A stretch of DNA of 64,000 bases from Desulfobacterium sp. (GTDB lineage: Bacteria; Desulfobacterota; Desulfobacteria; Desulfobacterales; Desulfobacteraceae), in the NCBI GenBank assembly GCA_030145245.1, contig JAQYWC010000011.1:1-64000 (forward strand), in the 5' to 3' direction. Of the stretch, positions 24,618-42,268 are shown one piece after another. The translations under genes were made by a program, and so were the position numbers. How positions within the stretch are numbered: the first letter of the stretch is position 1; each line of letters opens with the position of its first letter. The notes under the pieces are model-generated. The model saw only the letters and a list, made by a program, of their open reading frames with translations, was not told the origin of the DNA and searched no databases.

Positions 24618-24795
24618 GTAAAAAAAAAGAAAGTATGGGATTGTTCCGTAGGCTCCTGTCTGCTGAATGGCAACCTTTGCCTATTGTGCATTCCCCATAG
24701 ACAACGTATGATACAACCGATTTGAATATTGACTTTCCGGACATCACAGGGTCTGGATAAAGGACTCCCCCAAAAAGAAAAACAGGAATTAGATA

Positions 24796-26343
24796 ATGAT
24801 TAAACAGATAACCCTCAGGATTGACCCTGAAAACGGTTCAGACCTTACACTTATAAAAGATATGGCTTCAAAAGCCTTGAAGGTCTCCCTTGAATCCATA
24901 GATGGGGTTCAGGTGCTCCGGCGCTCATTGGACGCCCGGAGCAGAAAACCTGTTTTTCAAATCCAGGTGGCTGTTTATTGCGGTGAGCCTGTACAGGAGA
25001 TTATGCAGCCGGTGGCTTACCAGCCTGTAAAAAAAGGAAAAAAGGTGATTGTCGTGGGGACCGGTCCGGCCGGTCTGTTTGCAGCACTCAGGCTTATTGA
25101 ACATGGTATCCGGCCGATTCTTCTGGAAAGGGGCAAAAATGTGCGGGAGAGACGGTTTGATCTGAAAACCATCAACACCGACGGCATCACCCACCCGGAT
25201 TCCAACTATTGCTTTGGGGAGGGGGGGGCCGGAACTTACAGTGACGGCAAGCTCTTCACCCGGTCAACAAAACGGGGTGATGTGAAAAAAATGCTCTCCA
25301 TCCTTGTTCAGCACGGTGCTGTCCGGGATATCCTTATTAATGCCCATCCCCATGTTGGTTCCAACAAGCTGCCCAAAATCATTGAATCCATCCGGGACAC
25401 CATACTTGAATGCAATGGTGAGATCCATTTCAACTCCAGGGTGACAGACCTGATAATTAAGGATGGCACCATAAAGGGGGTCACCACCCGGGATGCGGAA
25501 TATCTGGCAGATGCCGTCATTCTGGCCACCGGGCACTCTGCCCGGGATATCTATGACCTGCTTGACCAAAAGGGCATACAGCTTGAGGCGAAGCCCTATG
25601 CCATGGGCGTGAGGGTGGAACATCCCCAAAACCTGATTGATTCGATCCGGTACAGAAGCCCAGTGCGCGCCCCCTCCCTTCCCGTGGCAAGCTATTCCCT
25701 TGCCTGCCAGGTGGGTAAAACAGGGGTCTACTCCTTTTGCATGTGCCCGGGAGGCATGCTGGTCCCGGCTGCCACGGCCCCGGGTGAGCTGGTTCTCAAC
25801 GGCATGTCCAACTCACTTCGGAACCTGCCCCTTGCCAATGCCGGCATGGTGGTGACCATTGGGCCGGACCAGTATCAGAAATATTCAAAGTTGAAACATT
25901 TCGCAGGCCTAGAATTCCAGAAGGAGATCGAAAGAAAAGCCTTTGATGCCGGCGGAAAAACCCTGGCAGCACCTGCCCAGCGACTCACCGATTTCCTGGA
26001 AGACCGTGTATCGTCAACCCTGCCCGAAACCTCTTATATCCCGGGCATGGTCTCCTTTACCCTGGCAGACGTGCTGGGCCCCTTTATCAGTGACGCCCTT
26101 AAGCAGGGGTTGAGAATCTTTGACAAGAAGATGAAGGGATACGTCAGCCGGGAGGCCACCCTCCTGGGCGTGGAGAGCCGTACCAGCTCACCTGTGAGAA
26201 TTCCCAGGATGACTGATACACGGATGCACCCCCAGGTACTGGGGCTTTTCCCTGTGGGTGAAGGATCCGGTTATGCCGGGGGGATTATTTCGTCAGCCAT
26301 TGACGGAGATGCAAGTGCGGACGGCGTTTTTGCCTATGTCTAA
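24796..26343 (+). CDS. FAD-dependent dehydrogenase (COG2509 family)
   Basis: A 515-aa flavoprotein. An N-terminal domain of about 80 residues (KQITLRIDPENG...) precedes the dinucleotide-binding motif VIVVGTGPAGLFAALRLIEHG and the family block CFGEGGAGTYSDGKLFTR. The C-terminal part has VSFTLADVLG and GEGSGYAGGIISSAIDG, closing the FAD site. The family is widespread in anaerobes but its substrate is unknown. It is divergent from the ilv leader. A REP palindrome begins immediately after its stop codon. Confidence 0.9.
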   Translation: MIKQITLRIDPENGSDLTLIKDMASKALKVSLESIDGVQVLRRSLDARSRKPVFQIQVAVYCGEPVQEIMQPVAYQPVKKGKKVIVVGTGPAGLFAALRLIEHGIRPILLERGKNVRERRFDLKTINTDGITHPDSNYCFGEGGAGTYSDGKLFTRSTKRGDVKKMLSILVQHGAVRDILINAHPHVGSNKLPKIIESIRDTILECNGEIHFNSRVTDLIIKDGTIKGVTTRDAEYLADAVILATGHSARDIYDLLDQKGIQLEAKPYAMGVRVEHPQNLIDSIRYRSPVRAPSLPVASYSLACQVGKTGVYSFCMCPGGMLVPAATAPGELVLNGMSNSLRNLPLANAGMVVTIGPDQYQKYSKLKHFAGLEFQKEIERKAFDAGGKTLAAPAQRLTDFLEDRVSSTLPETSYIPGMVSFTLADVLGPFISDALKQGLRIFDKKMKGYVSREATLLGVESRTSSPVRIPRMTDTRMHPQVLGLFPVGEGSGYAGGIISSAIDGDASADGVFAYV

Positions 26344-35328: not shown

Positions 35329-35354
35329 GTATTTTCGGCAACACTACCCCGGAC

Positions 35355-35810
35355 TTACTCAATAAATTTGGCAGCTGAAAGTCGTAAACCTTTTTTCGGC
35401 AGGGCCATGAGCGTGGAGGTGCCATGGGTAATGATTTTTCCCGATTCATCCTCTACCCTTGCCTCGGCATAGGAAATGGACTTGCCGGCCTTCAGGCAGT
35501 TGCCAAAAGCGGTGAGCCGCCCCTCACTGGCCTGTTCCAGGTAATTTAGCTTCAGGTCCACATTAACCAGGCCCGCATCCTCGGGAAGGCGCAAAAATGC
35601 GGCCCAGAAGGTTGCCGTGTCGATGAGGGTGGCCAGAACGCCTCCGTGAACAATACCAAAGGGCTGCATGTGGCAAGTCCCCAGGTCCAGGGACACAACC
35701 GAGCTGTCCAGTTCAATCCGGCTCAAGGCCATGGACATATGGCTGGGGTAGGGGCTTTCTTTTACGAGGGAGATCAATTCTTTGATGTAATCGGGATTGG
35801 GGCTTAACAT
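35355..35810 (-). CDS. PaaI-type hotdog-fold thioesterase
   Basis: A 151-aa acyl-CoA thioesterase of the hotdog fold. The core GTCHMQPFGIVHGGVLATLIDTATFWAAF carries the HGG loop and the acidic residue used by PaaI-like enzymes, and LNYLEQASEGRLTAFGNCLKAGKS is the second strand-helix unit. I start at ATG 35810, which has AAGGA 7 bases upstream, not 35846. It faces the aryl-CoA operon and follows a MarR gene with which it shares a candidate operator, suggesting release of CoA from aryl-CoA under MarR control. Confidence 0.87.
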   Translation of the reverse strand: MLSPNPDYIKELISLVKESPYPSHMSMALSRIELDSSVVSLDLGTCHMQPFGIVHGGVLATLIDTATFWAAFLRLPEDAGLVNVDLKLNYLEQASEGRLTAFGNCLKAGKSISYAEARVEDESGKIITHGTSTLMALPKKGLRLSAAKFIE

Positions 35811-35869
35811 GATGACGTCCTTTCTGTAATGTCGGATGTTTGTCACATTATATGTCTTGCATTCATGTA

Positions 35870-35883
35870 TCTTGCACGCAAGC
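35870..35883. promoter_or_regulatory. candidate MarR operator before the thioesterase gene
   Basis: TCTTGCACGCAAGC, an inverted repeat (CTTGC and GCAAG around a short centre), differs by two bases from TCTTGTATGCAAGC upstream of the marR gene. A further CTTGCAT half-site lies about 15 bases away. Confidence 0.55.
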
Positions 35884-35914
35884 TGATTAAGCCGTTTTTT
35901 TTGCAGCTCCAGTT

Positions 35915-36316
35915 TTATTTTGCCTTGGAGACCAGTTTCTTGAGCAGGGTCCGGAAGATCATCTCTTCTTCAGGGGTCAGCGGTGATAAAAAGGCCTGGT
36001 TCTGTTCCGGCAGCATGACCAGCACTTTTTGACAGATCTCTTTTCCAGCCGGCGTCAGACAAACGAGAATGGCCCGCCTGTCACCGGGGTTGGGTTTGCG
36101 CTCGATAAGACCGGTTTTTGCAAGACGGTCCAGAATTACCGTAAGGGTTGCGCTGTCCAGCTGAACCTGCAGTCCCAGGTCTTTTTCAGACAGAAACGAG
36201 AGCACCATGGCTTGTACCGCGGTCAACCCAAGTCGGGAGACCTGTTTGTTCCAGAACCGGGTACCGGACTGGCTTGCCTTGGCCAGCTGAAAAAAGATAC
36301 ACTGATTCGTATCCAT
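35915..36316 (-). CDS. MarR-family transcriptional regulator
   Basis: A 133-aa winged-helix dimeric repressor. The DNA-recognition region LQVQLDSATLTVILDRLAKTGLIERKPNPGDRRAILVCLTPAG has the MarR wing with the DxR signature (GDRR). The N-terminal helix WNKQVSRLGLTAVQAMVLSFL gives the dimer and ligand part. MarR proteins near aromatic degradation genes often bind aryl-CoA or phenolic ligands. An almost identical palindrome lies upstream of both this gene and the thioesterase gene, implying autoregulation. Confidence 0.93.
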   Translation of the reverse strand: MDTNQCIFFQLAKASQSGTRFWNKQVSRLGLTAVQAMVLSFLSEKDLGLQVQLDSATLTVILDRLAKTGLIERKPNPGDRRAILVCLTPAGKEICQKVLVMLPEQNQAFLSPLTPEEEMIFRTLLKKLVSKAK

Positions 36317-36343
36317 ATTACGCCTCTTTCATTTAAATATGTT

Positions 36344-36357
36344 TCTTGTATGCAAGC
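36344..36357. promoter_or_regulatory. candidate MarR operator before its own gene
   Basis: TCTTGTATGCAAGC, an inverted repeat 28 bases upstream of the marR ATG, followed by another GCAAGC at 36365-36370. It matches the site at 35870-35883. Confidence 0.55.
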
Positions 36358-36399
36358 TAAAATTGCAAGCAAAAAAAGGAATTCCATAAAATGAGAGGG

Positions 36400-37794
36400 T
36401 TACATCCGGATATGGGATGTGAAAAAGCTACGAAATTCGTCCCCACGGTGGCTGACATAGAGGATGGTGCTGAGTCCTTCCCCGGCCACCTGTTCGAGAA
36501 AGTCAAGCACGGCCTGGCGGTTTGGTTCGTCCAGGCCCTGGGTGGCTTCATCCAGTATGAGCAACTTTGGAATCTTGATCAGGGCCCTGGCAATGAGGAC
36601 CAGTCGCTGGTCGGCATAGGAAAGCCGGCGGAAAGGGGTATGGGCTTCATGGGCAAGACCTGTGCGCTCCAGCCATTCCATGGCTTTTTTTTCATCTTCG
36701 GGGGTGTATGGCTGGTAAAGACCTATGGAATCAAAAAGACCGGAAATAATACAGTGCAGGGTCGTCCCCGGCACGTGGTAACTTCTGTGCAGCTCCGGGC
36801 TGACAATACCCATGTGCTGCTTTAATTCCCATATGGATTCCCCGGTTCCCCGCTGGATGCCGAATATGCGCAGGTCGTTTTGGTAGCAGGCCGGGTGATC
36901 CCCGATGATCATCTGGAGCAGGGTGGATTTTCCGCATCCGTTGGGTCCTGTTACCAGGGTGTGGTCATGGGTGCGGATAGAAAGGTCAAGGCCGGAAAAA
37001 ACCGGCTTGCCGCCATATCCGGCTGAACCCTTTTGAAGCCGGACCAGTTCTGCTCCAGGTTCCCTGCTGGTACCGACCCGGCCCGACGGGTTGCCAGTCT
37101 GAACCAGCTCTTTTACCGAGGCCTTGAAATCCGGGGCGTCTGTCCGGAGAATTGCTTCAATCTGATCCAAATTTTCCGTCCGGGGACCGGCATGGGCAAT
37201 CCGGCCCTGGGCAATTCCCCCCACATGGGTGCACCAATTTGGGATATCCCCCTGGTTGTGTACCGTAATAAAAAGCTGGATCCCCCATTGGTGGCAAACG
37301 GCCAGGGCTTTGTCAAGCTCGTCACAGCTTGCCCGGTCCAGCCCTTCATAGGGGGCCTGAACCACCAGGCTTTCAATCCCCCGGGTGATCTGGGCCAGGA
37401 GCATGAGTTTTCTGGACTGGCCGGTACTCAGCTGGCGGTATCCCTTGTCCATGGAATCCGCCATGGCAAATGCTTTGATCAGATCGCCATGGTCATCCGG
37501 GTTATTAAGAAAAGAGGCGGCCCGGGTACCTGGGTCGATTCTGTCCAGATAATCGGTATCATCTTTTCTCAACTCTTCCTCAAACAGCGCCTGCTGACGT
37601 TTGAAAGAGACAACTCCGGTGTTTTCAGGCAGTTCCAGGTACTCCGCTGTTACATCCGGGAGCTCTCCTGAAAGCAGCTTAAAGAACGTATCAATTCCGG
37701 ACCGGTTGGTTCCCACCAGACACCAGGCCTCCCCGGGTCCGGCCTCAAACCGGTCAACAAAAAGATCATGGGCATTGGCATTTATAATTTTCAT
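36400..37794 (-). CDS. ModF-like double ABC ATPase
   Basis: A 464-aa protein with two ABC nucleotide-binding domains in tandem, matching the ModF layout. The C-terminal domain is intact: Walker A GPNGCGKST, signature LSYADQRLVL, Walker B KLLILDEATQGLD and a switch histidine in YVSHR. The N-terminal domain is degenerate: its Walker A reads GTNRSGIDT, with Ile for the catalytic Lys, and its Walker B reads SLVVQAPYEGLD, lacking Asp-Glu. ModF is linked to molybdate transport in E. coli, but no modABC lies here, so the substrate is unknown. Confidence 0.83.
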   Translation of the reverse strand: MKIINANAHDLFVDRFEAGPGEAWCLVGTNRSGIDTFFKLLSGELPDVTAEYLELPENTGVVSFKRQQALFEEELRKDDTDYLDRIDPGTRAASFLNNPDDHGDLIKAFAMADSMDKGYRQLSTGQSRKLMLLAQITRGIESLVVQAPYEGLDRASCDELDKALAVCHQWGIQLFITVHNQGDIPNWCTHVGGIAQGRIAHAGPRTENLDQIEAILRTDAPDFKASVKELVQTGNPSGRVGTSREPGAELVRLQKGSAGYGGKPVFSGLDLSIRTHDHTLVTGPNGCGKSTLLQMIIGDHPACYQNDLRIFGIQRGTGESIWELKQHMGIVSPELHRSYHVPGTTLHCIISGLFDSIGLYQPYTPEDEKKAMEWLERTGLAHEAHTPFRRLSYADQRLVLIARALIKIPKLLILDEATQGLDEPNRQAVLDFLEQVAGEGLSTILYVSHRGDEFRSFFTSHIRM

Positions 37795-37856
37795 GGGGCG
37801 TATTCAACTTATTTTCATAGGGTTCGGCAAGGGGAAATTTCTGCCGGGAGACGAAT

Positions 37857-37885
37857 CGCCGCCGGCCCCAGGGGAGCCGGCGGCG
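37857..37885 (-). terminator. strong GC hairpin after ilvC
   Basis: CGCCGCCGGC and its complement form a 10-bp GC stem downstream of ilvC. On the minus strand only ATTCGTCT follows, not a good U-run, so it may stabilise the mRNA rather than terminate it. Confidence 0.45.
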
Positions 37886-37904
37886 GTTCAAGGGGGGAGA
37901 GAGC

Positions 37905-39377
37905 TTACATAATCGGTTTCATGGCGCTCATATAAGACCTTAAGATTCTGCCCACCTCTTCCACGGAGGTTGAGCGGATGGCCTCATTGACCTGAATCAG
38001 GCGGACATTGTCCACGCTGTTGTCGGTGGTCTCAAGGCCCTTGCCAATGGCTTCCGTATCAATGGTTTTCATGAACTCCTCGAGCATTGGCACGGCTTGA
38101 TGTGCAAACAGGTAACAGCCATACTCAGCGGTATCGGAAATAACCACATTCATTTCATAGAGTCTTTTCCGGGCAATGAGGTTGGCAATGAGCGGCACCT
38201 CGTGGAGGGACTCGTAGTAGGCCGATTCTTCGATGATGCCGGATGCAACCATGGTGTCATAGGCCAGTTCAACACCGGCTTTAACCATGGCGATCATCAG
38301 AATTCCCTTGTCGAAAAATTCCTGCTCAGGGATCTCAGCGTCGGTGCAGGTGGATTTCTCAAAGGCGGTCTCAGCTGTCTCTGCCCGCCATTTGAGCAGG
38401 TTGACATCGTCATTGGCCCAGTCTTCCATCATGGTTTTGGAAAAATGGCCGCTGATGATGTCGTCCATGTGCTTGTTGAACAGGGGCGCCAGGATCTCCT
38501 TGAGTTGCTCACTCAGGTCAAAGGCTTTTATTTTGGCCGGGTTGGAGAGGCGGTCCATCATATTGGTGATGCCGCCGTGTTTCAGGGCTTCGGTAATTGT
38601 TTCCCAGCCGTACTGGATAAGTTTAGAGGCATAGCCCGCTTCCACACCCTGTTCAATCATCTTGTCGTAACAGAGGATGGAGCCCATCTGGAGAACACCG
38701 CAAAGGATGGTCTGCTCGCCCATGAGGTCGGATTTCACCTCTGCCACAAATGAGGAGTCAAGAACTCCTGCCCGGTGTCCGCCGGTGCCTGCGGCATAGG
38801 CCTTGGCCAGTTCAAATCCCTCTCCACGGGGATCGTTTTCCCGGTGCACGGCAATCAGTGTGGGCACGCCAAAGCCGCGTTTGTATTCTTCCCTTACTTC
38901 GGTGCCGGGGGATTTGGGGGCAACCATGATGACGGTAAGATCTTCCCGGATCTGCATGCCTTCTTCAACGATGTTAAATCCATGGGAATAGGACAGGCAG
39001 GCATCTTTTTTCATGAGGGGCATGACCGCCTCAATCACGTTGGTGTGCTGTTTGTCAGGGGTCAGGTTGATGACCAGGTCGGCACCGGGCAACATGGTTT
39101 CATAGGTACCCACGCTGAATCCGTTTTCAGTGGCATTTTTCCAGGACTGTCTTTTCTCACTGATGGCGGCTTCCCGCAGGGTATAGGAGACATCCAGGCC
39201 GCTGTCCCTCAGGTTGAGACCCTGGTGAAGTCCCTGGGCTCCGCATCCTACGATTACGATTTTTTTCCCCTTCAGGGCTTCCACGCCATTGAATTCAGAA
39301 GCGTCCATGAACCGGCACTGGGATAATTCTTCAAGCTGCAGCCGCAGTGGTAATCCGTTAAAATAATTTTCACCCAT
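37905..39377 (-). CDS. ilvC: ketol-acid reductoisomerase (class II)
   Basis: A 490-aa NADPH- and magnesium-dependent enzyme that isomerises and reduces acetohydroxy acids in valine and isoleucine synthesis. The Rossmann motif is [22 protein letters not shown]. The duplicated C-terminal knotted domain makes it the long class II form, as in E. coli, not the 330-aa class I. It is divergent from ilvY, with a palindrome between them, so it is regulated apart from the attenuated ilvD-leuA operon and probably induced by its substrates through IlvY. Confidence 0.97.
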
Positions 39378-39476
39378 TTCCCTGCTCCTTATTTATATCG
39401 TTTTATCAAATAATGATTATTAAACTCTTGTGTACCTTAAATGGCGTATTTTTCACATTGCGTCAAATGAATTATT

Positions 39477-39493
39477 TGCAACGTCGTGTTGCA
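39477..39493. promoter_or_regulatory. candidate IlvY operator
   Basis: TGCAACGTCGTGTTGCA, a perfect 6-bp inverted repeat with a 5-base centre, in the 252-base gap between divergent ilvC and ilvY. LysR regulators bind such interrupted palindromes; assignment to IlvY is inferred from position. Confidence 0.6.
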
Positions 39494-39629
39494 CAAGATG
39501 AAACACAATGATATACACACAGGAAACATTAACAGGATCATCGTTTTTCGCATATGACTTGAGTGTTTTTTTTACCATCGGTAAAACAGGTCTCAACCCG
39601 GGAACTATCATTTATAAAAGAGCCCCCAT

Positions 39630-40514
39630 ATGGATATTCGGACATTACAGCTTTTCAGACATCTTTCCGGCTCCCTTCATTTTGCCCGGACAAGCATGGC
39701 CTGCAATATTACCCCTTCTGCCCTGACCCGGATGATCCAGCGTCTGGAGGCCGAGGTGGGCCAGCCCCTTTTTATCCGGGACAACCGGTCCGTGGAATTG
39801 ACCTTTGCCGGTCAGGCCTTTAAAAAATATGCCGAGGATGTCATCCGGCGTTGGGACCGCCTGCAAATGGAATTGTCCGAAGATGACGTTCTTCAGGGAG
39901 AACTTTCCCTCTATTGCTCGGTCACGGCGGCTTATAGCATCCTGCCCGATATCATTGCCCGCTACCGGGTGATTCACCCCAAGGTGCAGATTAAACTTGA
40001 AACCGGTGATCCTGCCAAATCCATCGCCCTGATTGTCAACCGGGATGTGGATGTGGTCATTGCGGCCCTGCCGGAGAAGATACACCATAATCTGGCCTTT
40101 TTAAAAATGATCACAAGCCCCCTGGTGTTTATCGCCTCCAGGCGCTTCCCCGGTATTATTCAATACCGGGATGGCAAGATTGACTGGAAAAAAACCCCCA
40201 TGATTCTTCCCGATGTCGGCTTAAGCCGGGAACGCATGGACCTGTGGTTTGCCAGGCACCAGCAGGTGCCCCGCATCTATTCCCGGGTGGCGGGCCATGA
40301 GGCGATCATTGCCCTGGTTAATCTGGGATGCGGCATTGGTCTGGTGCCTGAACTGGTCCTGGAAAAAAGCCCGCTCATGGAAGATATCATGATCCTGAAG
40401 GACCTGCCGGAACTGCCGCCCTATGAGATCGGGCTTTGCACCATTGAAAAGAATCTCTCCATCCCAAAGATCCGGGCTCTCTGGGATCTGGCGGCCGGGA
40501 CAAAGGATTCCTGA
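39630..40514 (+). CDS. ilvY: LysR-type regulator IlvY
   Basis: A 294-aa LysR-type activator. The N-terminal helix-turn-helix (LQLFRHLSGSLHFARTSMACNITPSALTRMIQRLEAEVGQPLFIRDNRSVELT) closely resembles E. coli IlvY. A substrate-binding domain for acetolactate or acetohydroxybutyrate follows (LSLYCSVTAAYSILPDII...). It is divergent from ilvC, the arrangement known for ilvY-ilvC, where it activates ilvC and represses itself. Confidence 0.93.
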   Translation: MDIRTLQLFRHLSGSLHFARTSMACNITPSALTRMIQRLEAEVGQPLFIRDNRSVELTFAGQAFKKYAEDVIRRWDRLQMELSEDDVLQGELSLYCSVTAAYSILPDIIARYRVIHPKVQIKLETGDPAKSIALIVNRDVDVVIAALPEKIHHNLAFLKMITSPLVFIASRRFPGIIQYRDGKIDWKKTPMILPDVGLSRERMDLWFARHQQVPRIYSRVAGHEAIIALVNLGCGIGLVPELVLEKSPLMEDIMILKDLPELPPYEIGLCTIEKNLSIPKIRALWDLAAGTKDS

Positions 40515-40804
40515 CCCGGGTGAAAATTTTCCATGTGCAAAAGAGACCCTATAAGGGTGAAAAAATAAACATAGATGTGAGAGTATGATGTAACATGCGG
40601 TTGACTTAAATAATCGCATCATTTCTCCAACAGGGAAAATATCCGTATTATCATTCTTTGTACCAATGTTGAATCCATTTTCGATTGATCCCATTAATAC
40701 CCCCTCTAAATATGATAGTATCGCGAATATATATCGCCTGGACTGTTTTTACATGCATGAAAAAAGATCCTTTTAGTAAATTGTGTTTTGATTGTAAGAG
40801 AGAC
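40515..40804. other. AT-rich non-coding stretch
   Basis: About 290 bases after ilvY with no supported ORF, RNA gene or clear terminator. It probably holds the upstream activator region for the sigma-54 promoter that follows; no obvious enhancer palindrome is recognised. Confidence 0.5.
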
Positions 40805-40821
40805 TTGGCACATTTGTTGCT
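40805..40821 (+). promoter_or_regulatory. sigma-54 (RpoN) promoter
   Basis: TTGGCACATTTGTTGCT matches the -24/-12 consensus, with GG and GC separated by exactly 10 bases. The predicted start of transcription is near 40832, at the very beginning of the GEMM-like leader. Confidence 0.82.
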
Positions 40822-40830
40822 AAATTACCC

Positions 40831-40909
40831 GGAACAGAAATTACGGTTTTTAAAGAAAAAGGCGCTGGGACGGAAAACCACGGGTCCCGTTGGGGGATAG
40901 CCGGTTGCC
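40831..40909 (+). promoter_or_regulatory. GEMM-like (c-di-GMP-I type) riboswitch candidate
   Basis: The leader contains GGGACGGAAAACCACGGGTC and GATAGCCGGTTGCC, close to the conserved core GGGACGCAAAGCCACGGGTC and GATAGCCGGGTTGCC of GEMM aptamers. A small hairpin TTTTTAAAGAAAAA takes the place of the tetraloop arm, and TCCC pairs with GGGA in the other arm. The 5' side reads ACAGAAATTACGG where ACAGGCAAACC is expected, so helix P1 is poorly supported. It is either a divergent aptamer or a decayed one. Confidence 0.5.
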
Positions 40910-40930
40910 TTGGAAAACATGGAGGATGTT

Positions 40931-41110
40931 ATGAAAAAGCTGTTCGGCTTTTTAGTGGGGGTGTTTTTAGTTTTTGCGGTTGCGGGGAGTGCCAGTGCTA
41001 GTCCGTATACCGACACCTATAAACCGGAAACCATGATTCTTTTAGGTCTTGGCCTTGTGGGGCTTGCCGGGTTCGGCCGGAAGAGATTACGGAAGAAGTT
41101 ACGGAAGTAA
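40931..41110 (+). CDS. mini PEP-CTERM-type surface protein
   Basis: A 59-aa protein: signal peptide (residues 1-23, MKKLFGFLVGVFLVFAVAGSASA), a mature part of about ten residues, then KPETMILLGLGLVGLAGFGRKRLRKK, which is a PEP-CTERM sorting tail (PEP-like box, hydrophobic helix, basic end). Exosortase would cut at the PET box, leaving almost nothing but the tag. GGAGG lies just before ATG 40931; the track start at 40910 lies in the leader RNA. It is transcribed from a sigma-54 promoter, as known for PEP-CTERM genes under PrsK/PrsR. Confidence 0.8.
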   Translation: MKKLFGFLVGVFLVFAVAGSASASPYTDTYKPETMILLGLGLVGLAGFGRKRLRKKLRK

Positions 41111-41150
41111 AAAGTACTTGCGCTCTTATTAAAAGGTGGGCAATGGAGGA

Positions 41151-41182
41151 AAGGGGCTTCAATTTGTTGAACCCCCTTTTTT
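41151..41182 (+). terminator. terminator of the PEP-CTERM mini-gene
   Basis: AAGGGGCTTCAA pairs with TTGAACCCCCTT with one mismatch and a 4-base loop, followed by a T-run. Confidence 0.75.
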
Positions 41183-41209
41183 GTTTGCCGGGCTTCAGGG
41201 GATGAACGT

Positions 41210-42268
41210 TCAGTGGTAGAGGAGCCTTGCCCGGATCATCTGGATGCTCTCGAGGATGGAGCCGGCCCTTTTTTCGCCGATGCCCTGGACCCGGCTTAAG
41301 CTTGCGGCGTTGGCCGTTCGAATCCGGGAGATGCTGGAGAACTCCTTGACCACGTTCCTTGCAACGGGCATGGGGATCTTGGCAAGGCAGGTGAGCAGCC
41401 GGTATCCCCTGGGAACAAGGGCGGTTTCCTGGAGTTCGGCCTCGGTTGACACCTTCCATCCCAGCAGCTTAGCGATCACCATGAGGTCCGTGGGTTTCCG
41501 GGTCAACAGGTTCTTGATGGTGGCGGCCACTCCGGTATCATGGGGCTCCTGTTTTGAATAATCCATGATGATGGCGGTCAGGAGGGTACAGATATCCTGG
41601 GACACGCTCTTGAACTGCATGGCGCTGAGCTTTCCCTCGATTCCGGCCTCCACCACAAAGGGCTCGATCTCCTGGGGAATGGTGAGGATCTCCCGGGCCC
41701 GGTTGATGACGCTCACCACGTCCAGGAGCTGGACCTCGTATTCCAGCTCTTCGATGTTCATGCCGTGGATCTGCCGGTCCAAAGCTTCCCTGAGTCTTTC
41801 CAGGGAGTTGAGGGTCAGGTTGAACCGGGTCATGAGCATGTTGAGGTTGTGGAGCCGGTGCTTGAAATTCTTGTAAAATATCGTGATGCCGCCTTTCTTC
41901 TGGGACACGGCAATGACAAGCCTGCCGGTTTGCTTTGCCACCCGCTCGGCGGTCCTGTGGCGCATGCCGGTTTCATCGGTGGGGATGGTGGCGTCCGGGA
42001 TCAGGTGAACGTTGGCAGCAAAGATCCGGGTGATGGCCTTGTCAACGATGATGGCGCCGTCCATCTTGGAGAGTTCGTAGAGCTTTTGGACGGAAAAGGC
42101 CGACCCGATGTAAAAACCGCCCTGGAGCATGGCTTCCCTGGCCTTGAGGTCATCGAGAAAGACGATCAGGGAGCCGATGTTTGCGTCGACGATTTCATTC
42201 AGGGCCCGCCGGAGCTGGGTGCCCGGGGCGACCTTTCGTATCTTTGGAAGAAGCGCTGCATCGATCAT
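41210..42268 (-). CDS. disA: diadenylate cyclase DisA (DNA integrity scanning protein)
   Basis: A 352-aa octameric enzyme that makes c-di-AMP from ATP and senses branched DNA. The DAC domain has the catalytic DGA motif in KMDGAIIVD (residues 70-72) and the RHR motif in GMRHRTAERVAKQT (103-105). A helical linker follows, and the C-terminal helix-hairpin-helix DNA-binding region ends with SLSRVQGIGEKRAGSILESI. It lies 20 bases downstream of a TPR gene on the same strand, so the two form an operon. Confidence 0.96.
   Translation of the reverse strand: MIDAALLPKIRKVAPGTQLRRALNEIVDANIGSLIVFLDDLKAREAMLQGGFYIGSAFSVQKLYELSKMDGAIIVDKAITRIFAANVHLIPDATIPTDETGMRHRTAERVAKQTGRLVIAVSQKKGGITIFYKNFKHRLHNLNMLMTRFNLTLNSLERLREALDRQIHGMNIEELEYEVQLLDVVSVINRAREILTIPQEIEPFVVEAGIEGKLSAMQFKSVSQDICTLLTAIIMDYSKQEPHDTGVAATIKNLLTRKPTDLMVIAKLLGWKVSTEAELQETALVPRGYRLLTCLAKIPMPVARNVVKEFSSISRIRTANAASLSRVQGIGEKRAGSILESIQMIRARLLYH

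Follow-up and report, generated by a model that had tools for sequence, protein, structure and literature searches.

A probable deletion derivative of a sigma-54/GEMM-I/PEP-CTERM gene behind a 59-residue open reading frame in Desulfobacterium sp.

On the forward strand of a 64,000-nucleotide stretch of a Desulfobacterium sp. genome (in the following the window), a sigma-54 promoter is followed by a leader resembling a c-di-GMP-I (GEMM-I) aptamer and by an open reading frame for a protein of only 59 amino acids that ends in a PEP-CTERM-like tail. The locus raises the question whether it is a c-di-GMP-controlled gene for a tiny exported peptide or decoy substrate, as a first, sequence-only reading had proposed, or what is left of a larger gene. 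The combination of parts is in itself ordinary, since sigma-54 sites ahead of PEP-CTERM genes were described in 2006 (Haft et al.; PMC1569441), RpoN dependence of PEP-CTERM genes was shown in Aquincola (PMC9850573), and a c-di-GMP-I riboswitch before PEP-CTERM genes is known from Methylophaga GP59 (PMC12530212). We consider it likely that the locus arose by internal deletion from a duplicate of a surface-protein gene of this sigma-54/GEMM-I/PEP-CTERM type and is now RpoN-driven, decoupled from its riboswitch and without a selected function; homology, missing segments, intact promoter and open frame can be read directly from the sequence.

The sigma-54 promoter and the full-length paralogue

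The -24/-12 promoter TTGGCACATTTGTTGCT (positions 40805-40821, forward strand) agrees with the consensus TGGCACN5TTGCW at 11 of 11 positions and is the sole exact match found by a pattern scan of the window. In the whole genome the pattern is enriched (31 sites versus 4 for the reversed control), so the proposal of a consensus RpoN promoter was borne out. Control by PrsR, which had been proposed together with RpoN control, is not established, because no protein of the genome passes the curated cut-off for PrsR (TIGR02915), the best one reaching 419 of the 502.6 bits needed. A possible activator-binding motif 1 (40737-40753, forward strand) has its 3' end TTTACA at 40748-40753, 51 nt upstream of the sigma-54 site; this is a weak candidate, with a chance of about 5% in base-shuffled sequence. 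The distance lies within the published spacing of 32-92 nt between motif 1, which ends in TTTACA, and motif 2 (PMC1569441). From the promoter spacing and the position of the -12 element, the transcribed leader is predicted to extend from 40832 to 40930 on the forward strand. A relaxed Rfam search also returned narK RNA (RF03032; 21.2 bits, 40807-40868), which was rejected because the match consists mainly of the sigma-54 promoter. The RF03032 consensus itself opens with GGCaCAgcucUUGCUaaa, a sigma-54 -24/-12 promoter, and this family may therefore in part represent promoter DNA instead of RNA.

The same genome contains a full-length paralogue (G000:C69:24653-25456, in the following C69), which is composed of a sigma-54 site (TTGGCACATTAGTTGCT at C69:24653) with a motif 1 candidate at -69, an intact GEMM-I aptamer (24729-24804, 57.6 bits) and a gene for a PEP-CTERM preprotein of about 207 amino acids (MNKFFSFLMGLFLVFAVAEGAGAYSFDMG...IPEPATMVLFGLGLVGLAGVTRKNFRK). 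A DNA search with the window element matched C69:24757-24891 (84% identity over 134 nt, E 2.5e-35), spanning the 3' half of the aptamer, the ribosome site and the signal peptide, and, in a second segment, 25380-25428 (86% identity over 49 nt of the tail). Both matches are parts of one gene and occur in the same order and behind the same promoter as in the window copy. The two copies have the promoter, the aptamer 3' half, the ribosome site, the signal-peptide region and the hydrophobic/basic tail in common (84-86% DNA identity), whereas only C69 has a complete aptamer, a strand that can act as anti-Shine-Dalgarno, a mature domain (about 150 residues) and the unbroken IPEPAT motif.

The surroundings of the window copy bear on whether it might be an assembly artefact joining pieces of several PEP-CTERM paralogues. 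Compared with the congener G001, the window carries at about 35340-41208 an ilvC-LysR-containing block plus the mini-gene between a TRAP-transporter gene and disA, whereas ilvC-LysR and disA are found apart from each other in G001; a second congener (G002) has an acyl-CoA ligase-like gene after LysR. The different placement relative to G001 puts the mini-gene at the edge of a rearrangement, and its location between a LysR and a disA block, which are not neighbours in G001, would fit an artefact. However, with a divergence of about 15% from C69 in the parts that remain, the locus is no collapsed copy of the C69 gene, and it lies among ordinary genes on a contig of 175 kb, which makes an artefact extremely improbable. 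The neighbouring DisA, a c-di-AMP synthase (41210-42268, reverse strand), is 93% identical to DisA of Desulfobacterium sp. MAG9, which places the genome with this genus; its nearest relatives found outside the genus belong to the Thermotogae and Firmicutes (about 44% identity), and the disA end has no DNA match in G002; the gene was possibly gained horizontally.

A leader derived from a GEMM-I aptamer

Homology to C69, the RF01051 score and alignment identify positions 40865-40912 (forward strand) as a remnant of a c-di-GMP-I aptamer consisting of the 3' arm of P2, J2/3, P3 and the 3' end. In an alignment with ten other aptamers of the same genome, the conserved J2/3, P3 and the 3' AGCCGG-type segment are well kept, and one alignment retains a J1/2-like AAAAAG. 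The 5' arm of P2 and the GNRA loop, the tetraloop that in an intact aptamer docks into P3, are missing both in the pairwise alignment with C69 and in the multiple alignment, the deletion measuring 39 nt against C69 (pairwise, with nearly free gap extension) or about 14 nt in the MAFFT multiple alignment; against C69 it also takes the anti-Shine-Dalgarno strand. In the relaxed Rfam search the leader scored 21.7 bits for c-di-GMP-I (RF01051; gathering cut-off 35) and 21.6 bits for c-di-GMP-I-GGC (gathering cut-off 59), and at gathering level the window yielded only a tRNA and no riboswitch match at the leader. The claim of a GEMM-like leader therefore holds for its descent, and the covariance search with the GEMM-I model speaks against an intact aptamer.

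Could the remnant still be the working c-di-GMP or cGAMP riboswitch of the sequence-only reading, controlling the mini-gene in a minimal, P2-less form? The good preservation of P3, J2/3 and the 3' end and the AAAAAG segment would fit such a device, which we regard as highly improbable in view of the sub-threshold score, a predicted fold no better than that of shuffled sequences (z 0.03), and the presence of the P2 5' arm and tetraloop in every one of the 25 further aptamers that were recognised in the fetched loci (in seven of them the sequence reads gccaaacc), which also led us to reject a recurrent class of P2-less aptamers. In addition, a change in the P2 loop (A24-26U) or at C81 rendered the Cd1 GEMM-I aptamer binding-incompetent (PMC9262584). 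A working c-di-GMP or cGAMP aptamer was accordingly rejected on the sub-cut-off score and the missing P2, and the leader is probably not a working switch. Precedents for truncated or pseudogene c-di-GMP-I riboswitches were not found in the literature.

The predicted accessibility of the ribosome-binding site points in the same direction. In the C69 leader, the strand UUUUAACAUCCAUGAU is able to cover the Shine-Dalgarno and start-codon region by pairing, at an opening cost of 3.37 kcal/mol; alternatively, some of this strand can form P1. This alternative pairing would make the C69 leader an ON switch, a mechanism that we only infer, since a fold constrained to contain P1 and P2 exposes the start codon but leaves the Shine-Dalgarno sequence largely paired. 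The ribosome-binding site GGAGG of the window copy (40920-40924, forward strand) is predicted to be open without ligand, requiring only 0.13 kcal/mol, and its translation should thus escape such control. Downstream of the gene lies a terminator-like hairpin followed by a T run (41147-41182, forward strand; z -3.08); a CsrC match from the relaxed Rfam search falls on this hairpin and was rejected as a weak chance match.

The genome of 6.4 Mb contains 15 c-di-GMP-I aptamers above the cut-off, many of them directly upstream of PEP-CTERM genes, along with 22 PEP-CTERM matches that exceed the Pfam cut-off and further ones that do not. The window copy resembles riboswitch-PEP-CTERM genes such as these and those known from Methylophaga in having an aptamer-derived leader directly before a PEP-CTERM-type reading frame, but differs from them in the deleted P2 5' arm and GNRA loop and in its score under the cut-off. 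Degraded GEMM-I leaders below the Rfam cut-off occur on other PEP-CTERM genes of the genome (C38 near 6900, L213 / L240; C38 near 36600, L238; C39:113298, L011), which fits repeated duplication and loss. Arrays of four to five GEMM-I-like aptamers within about 450 bases were seen at L074 (G102:C75) and L081 (G094:C109).

The mini-protein and its possible function

The reading frame at 40931-41110 (forward strand) is open and encodes MKKLFGFLVGVFLVFAVAGSASASPYTDTYKPETMILLGLGLVGLAGFGRKRLRKKLRK, in which, according to the ORF list, homology and profiles, a signal-peptide-like start (judged by eye and by homology to C69) and about eight residues precede a degenerate PEP-CTERM tail. The C-terminus MILLGLGLVGLAGFGRKRLRKKLRK consists of a hydrophobic stretch and a basic end. 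For PF07589 the tail lies just at the cut-off of 20.7, scoring 20.7 in one search, with the match beginning at profile position 5, and 21.6 in another; for TIGR02595 it stays below the threshold with 15.5 (cut-off 16). Relative to C69, the coding deletion has taken nearly the entire mature domain, and since its junction lies within the sorting motif, IPEPATM has become YKPETM. The near-invariant Pro-Glu-Pro is thereby absent, whereas P-x-P is preserved in every other PEP-CTERM tail of the genome that could be read. Of the earlier description as a PEP-CTERM protein composed almost only of sorting signals, the open frame, the signal-peptide-like start and the PEP-CTERM-like tail stand, but the PEP tripeptide is broken. 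The hydrophobic signal peptide also explains a match to AgrD-type peptides (TIGR04223; 18.1, cut-off 19), which was rejected. Like the PEP-CTERM genes preceded by motifs 1 and 2 (PMC1569441), the window copy is a single-gene unit with a long upstream region and a sigma-54 site, and its product has a signal-peptide-like start, a C-terminal hydrophobic stretch and a basic end; unlike them, it has no intact tripeptide, no PrsR above the cut-off in its genome and almost no mature protein.

An exosortase would be required for sorting, and three PF09721 genes (149-238 bits) are present in the genome, one of them on the contig of the window. The broken PEP motif suggests that the mini-protein is probably non-sortable. 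In the intact C69 copy, sigma-54 polymerase would initiate transcription, c-di-GMP bound to the aptamer would probably free the ribosome site, and the preprotein would be exported and then sorted by exosortase. In the window copy, the leader deletion and the coding deletion would leave a transcript that is still RpoN-dependent and unresponsive to c-di-GMP, and the product would be a small membrane-inserted protein, unprocessed by exosortase and without a selected function.

Several observations do not sit easily with a mere relic. No damage is seen in the promoter, the ribosome site, the frame or the terminator-like hairpin, although a random relic would not need to retain all of them. The dN/dS values against C69 (about 0.39 for the signal peptide and about 0.27 for the tail) indicate some constraint, but do not allow a clear reading, since both lineages and the period preceding the deletion contribute to them. 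The absence of the mini-gene from the two congeners examined, G001 and G002, fits the relic reading in turn, on a sample of two. Similar mini-genes, for which the sequence-only reading had suggested a search in relatives, do exist in another genus (g10) of the same family, where a conserved mini-PEP-CTERM family occurs in four genomes (L196 827-1003, G034; L194 420-629, G039; L203, G024; L195, G029). Its proteins of 58-70 amino acids carry a mature part of about ten residues (ADTILSPxITI) before the PEP, the genes have sigma-54-like promoters (TGGCATN5TTGCT), and dN/dS values of 0.05-0.32 point to purifying selection. The mini-genes are overlapped by a second, 56-aa reading frame with RRSxYDRR / ERRSGGDRR motifs, for which no Pfam match was obtained. 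The g10 family resembles the window copy in its arrangement of signal peptide, about ten residues and PEP-CTERM tail behind a sigma-54-like promoter, but differs from it by an intact PEP in three of four members, the absence of a GEMM element, a conserved mature peptide and the overlapping second frame, and there is no homology past the sorting signals.

On these grounds the locus might encode a functional mini-substrate, i.e. a small peptide, exported or held in the membrane, that is expressed from the sigma-54 promoter, serves to load exosortase or competes for it, and has lost c-di-GMP control together with P2 and the anti-Shine-Dalgarno strand. The intact expression signals and the independent g10 family under purifying selection would favour this explanation, but the broken tripeptide, the missing orthologue in the two congeners and a mature remainder common to no family found argue against it, and we consider it unlikely. 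Mini PEP-CTERM proteins could also be a real functional class in the bacterial family, with this locus as a young member in which deletion removed the mature domain along with c-di-GMP control, leaving a small peptide at work in the exosortase pathway or the membrane; this appears likewise unlikely. A selected function of the mini-peptide at this locus is possible but not supported by the present data. As to the initial proposal, RpoN control and an evolutionary relation to both c-di-GMP-I riboswitches and the PEP-CTERM/exosortase system stand, whereas a c-di-GMP-controlled tiny peptide or decoy is unlikely here, since the riboswitch segment on which the tertiary fold depends has been lost, nothing is predicted to cover the ribosome site, the PEP recognition motif is disrupted and neither of the two congeners has an orthologue.

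If the mini-gene works, it would represent a cargo-less surface-sorting substrate; the gene pair of the conserved mini-PEP-CTERM family in g10 is the better place to test the idea of mini-substrates. For the internally deleted paralogue that we favour, the value lies in the comparison: one genome shows side by side a sigma-54/GEMM/PEP-CTERM cassette that duplicates, loses its riboswitch and shrinks, and this guards against taking a deletion relic for a new c-di-GMP peptide system.
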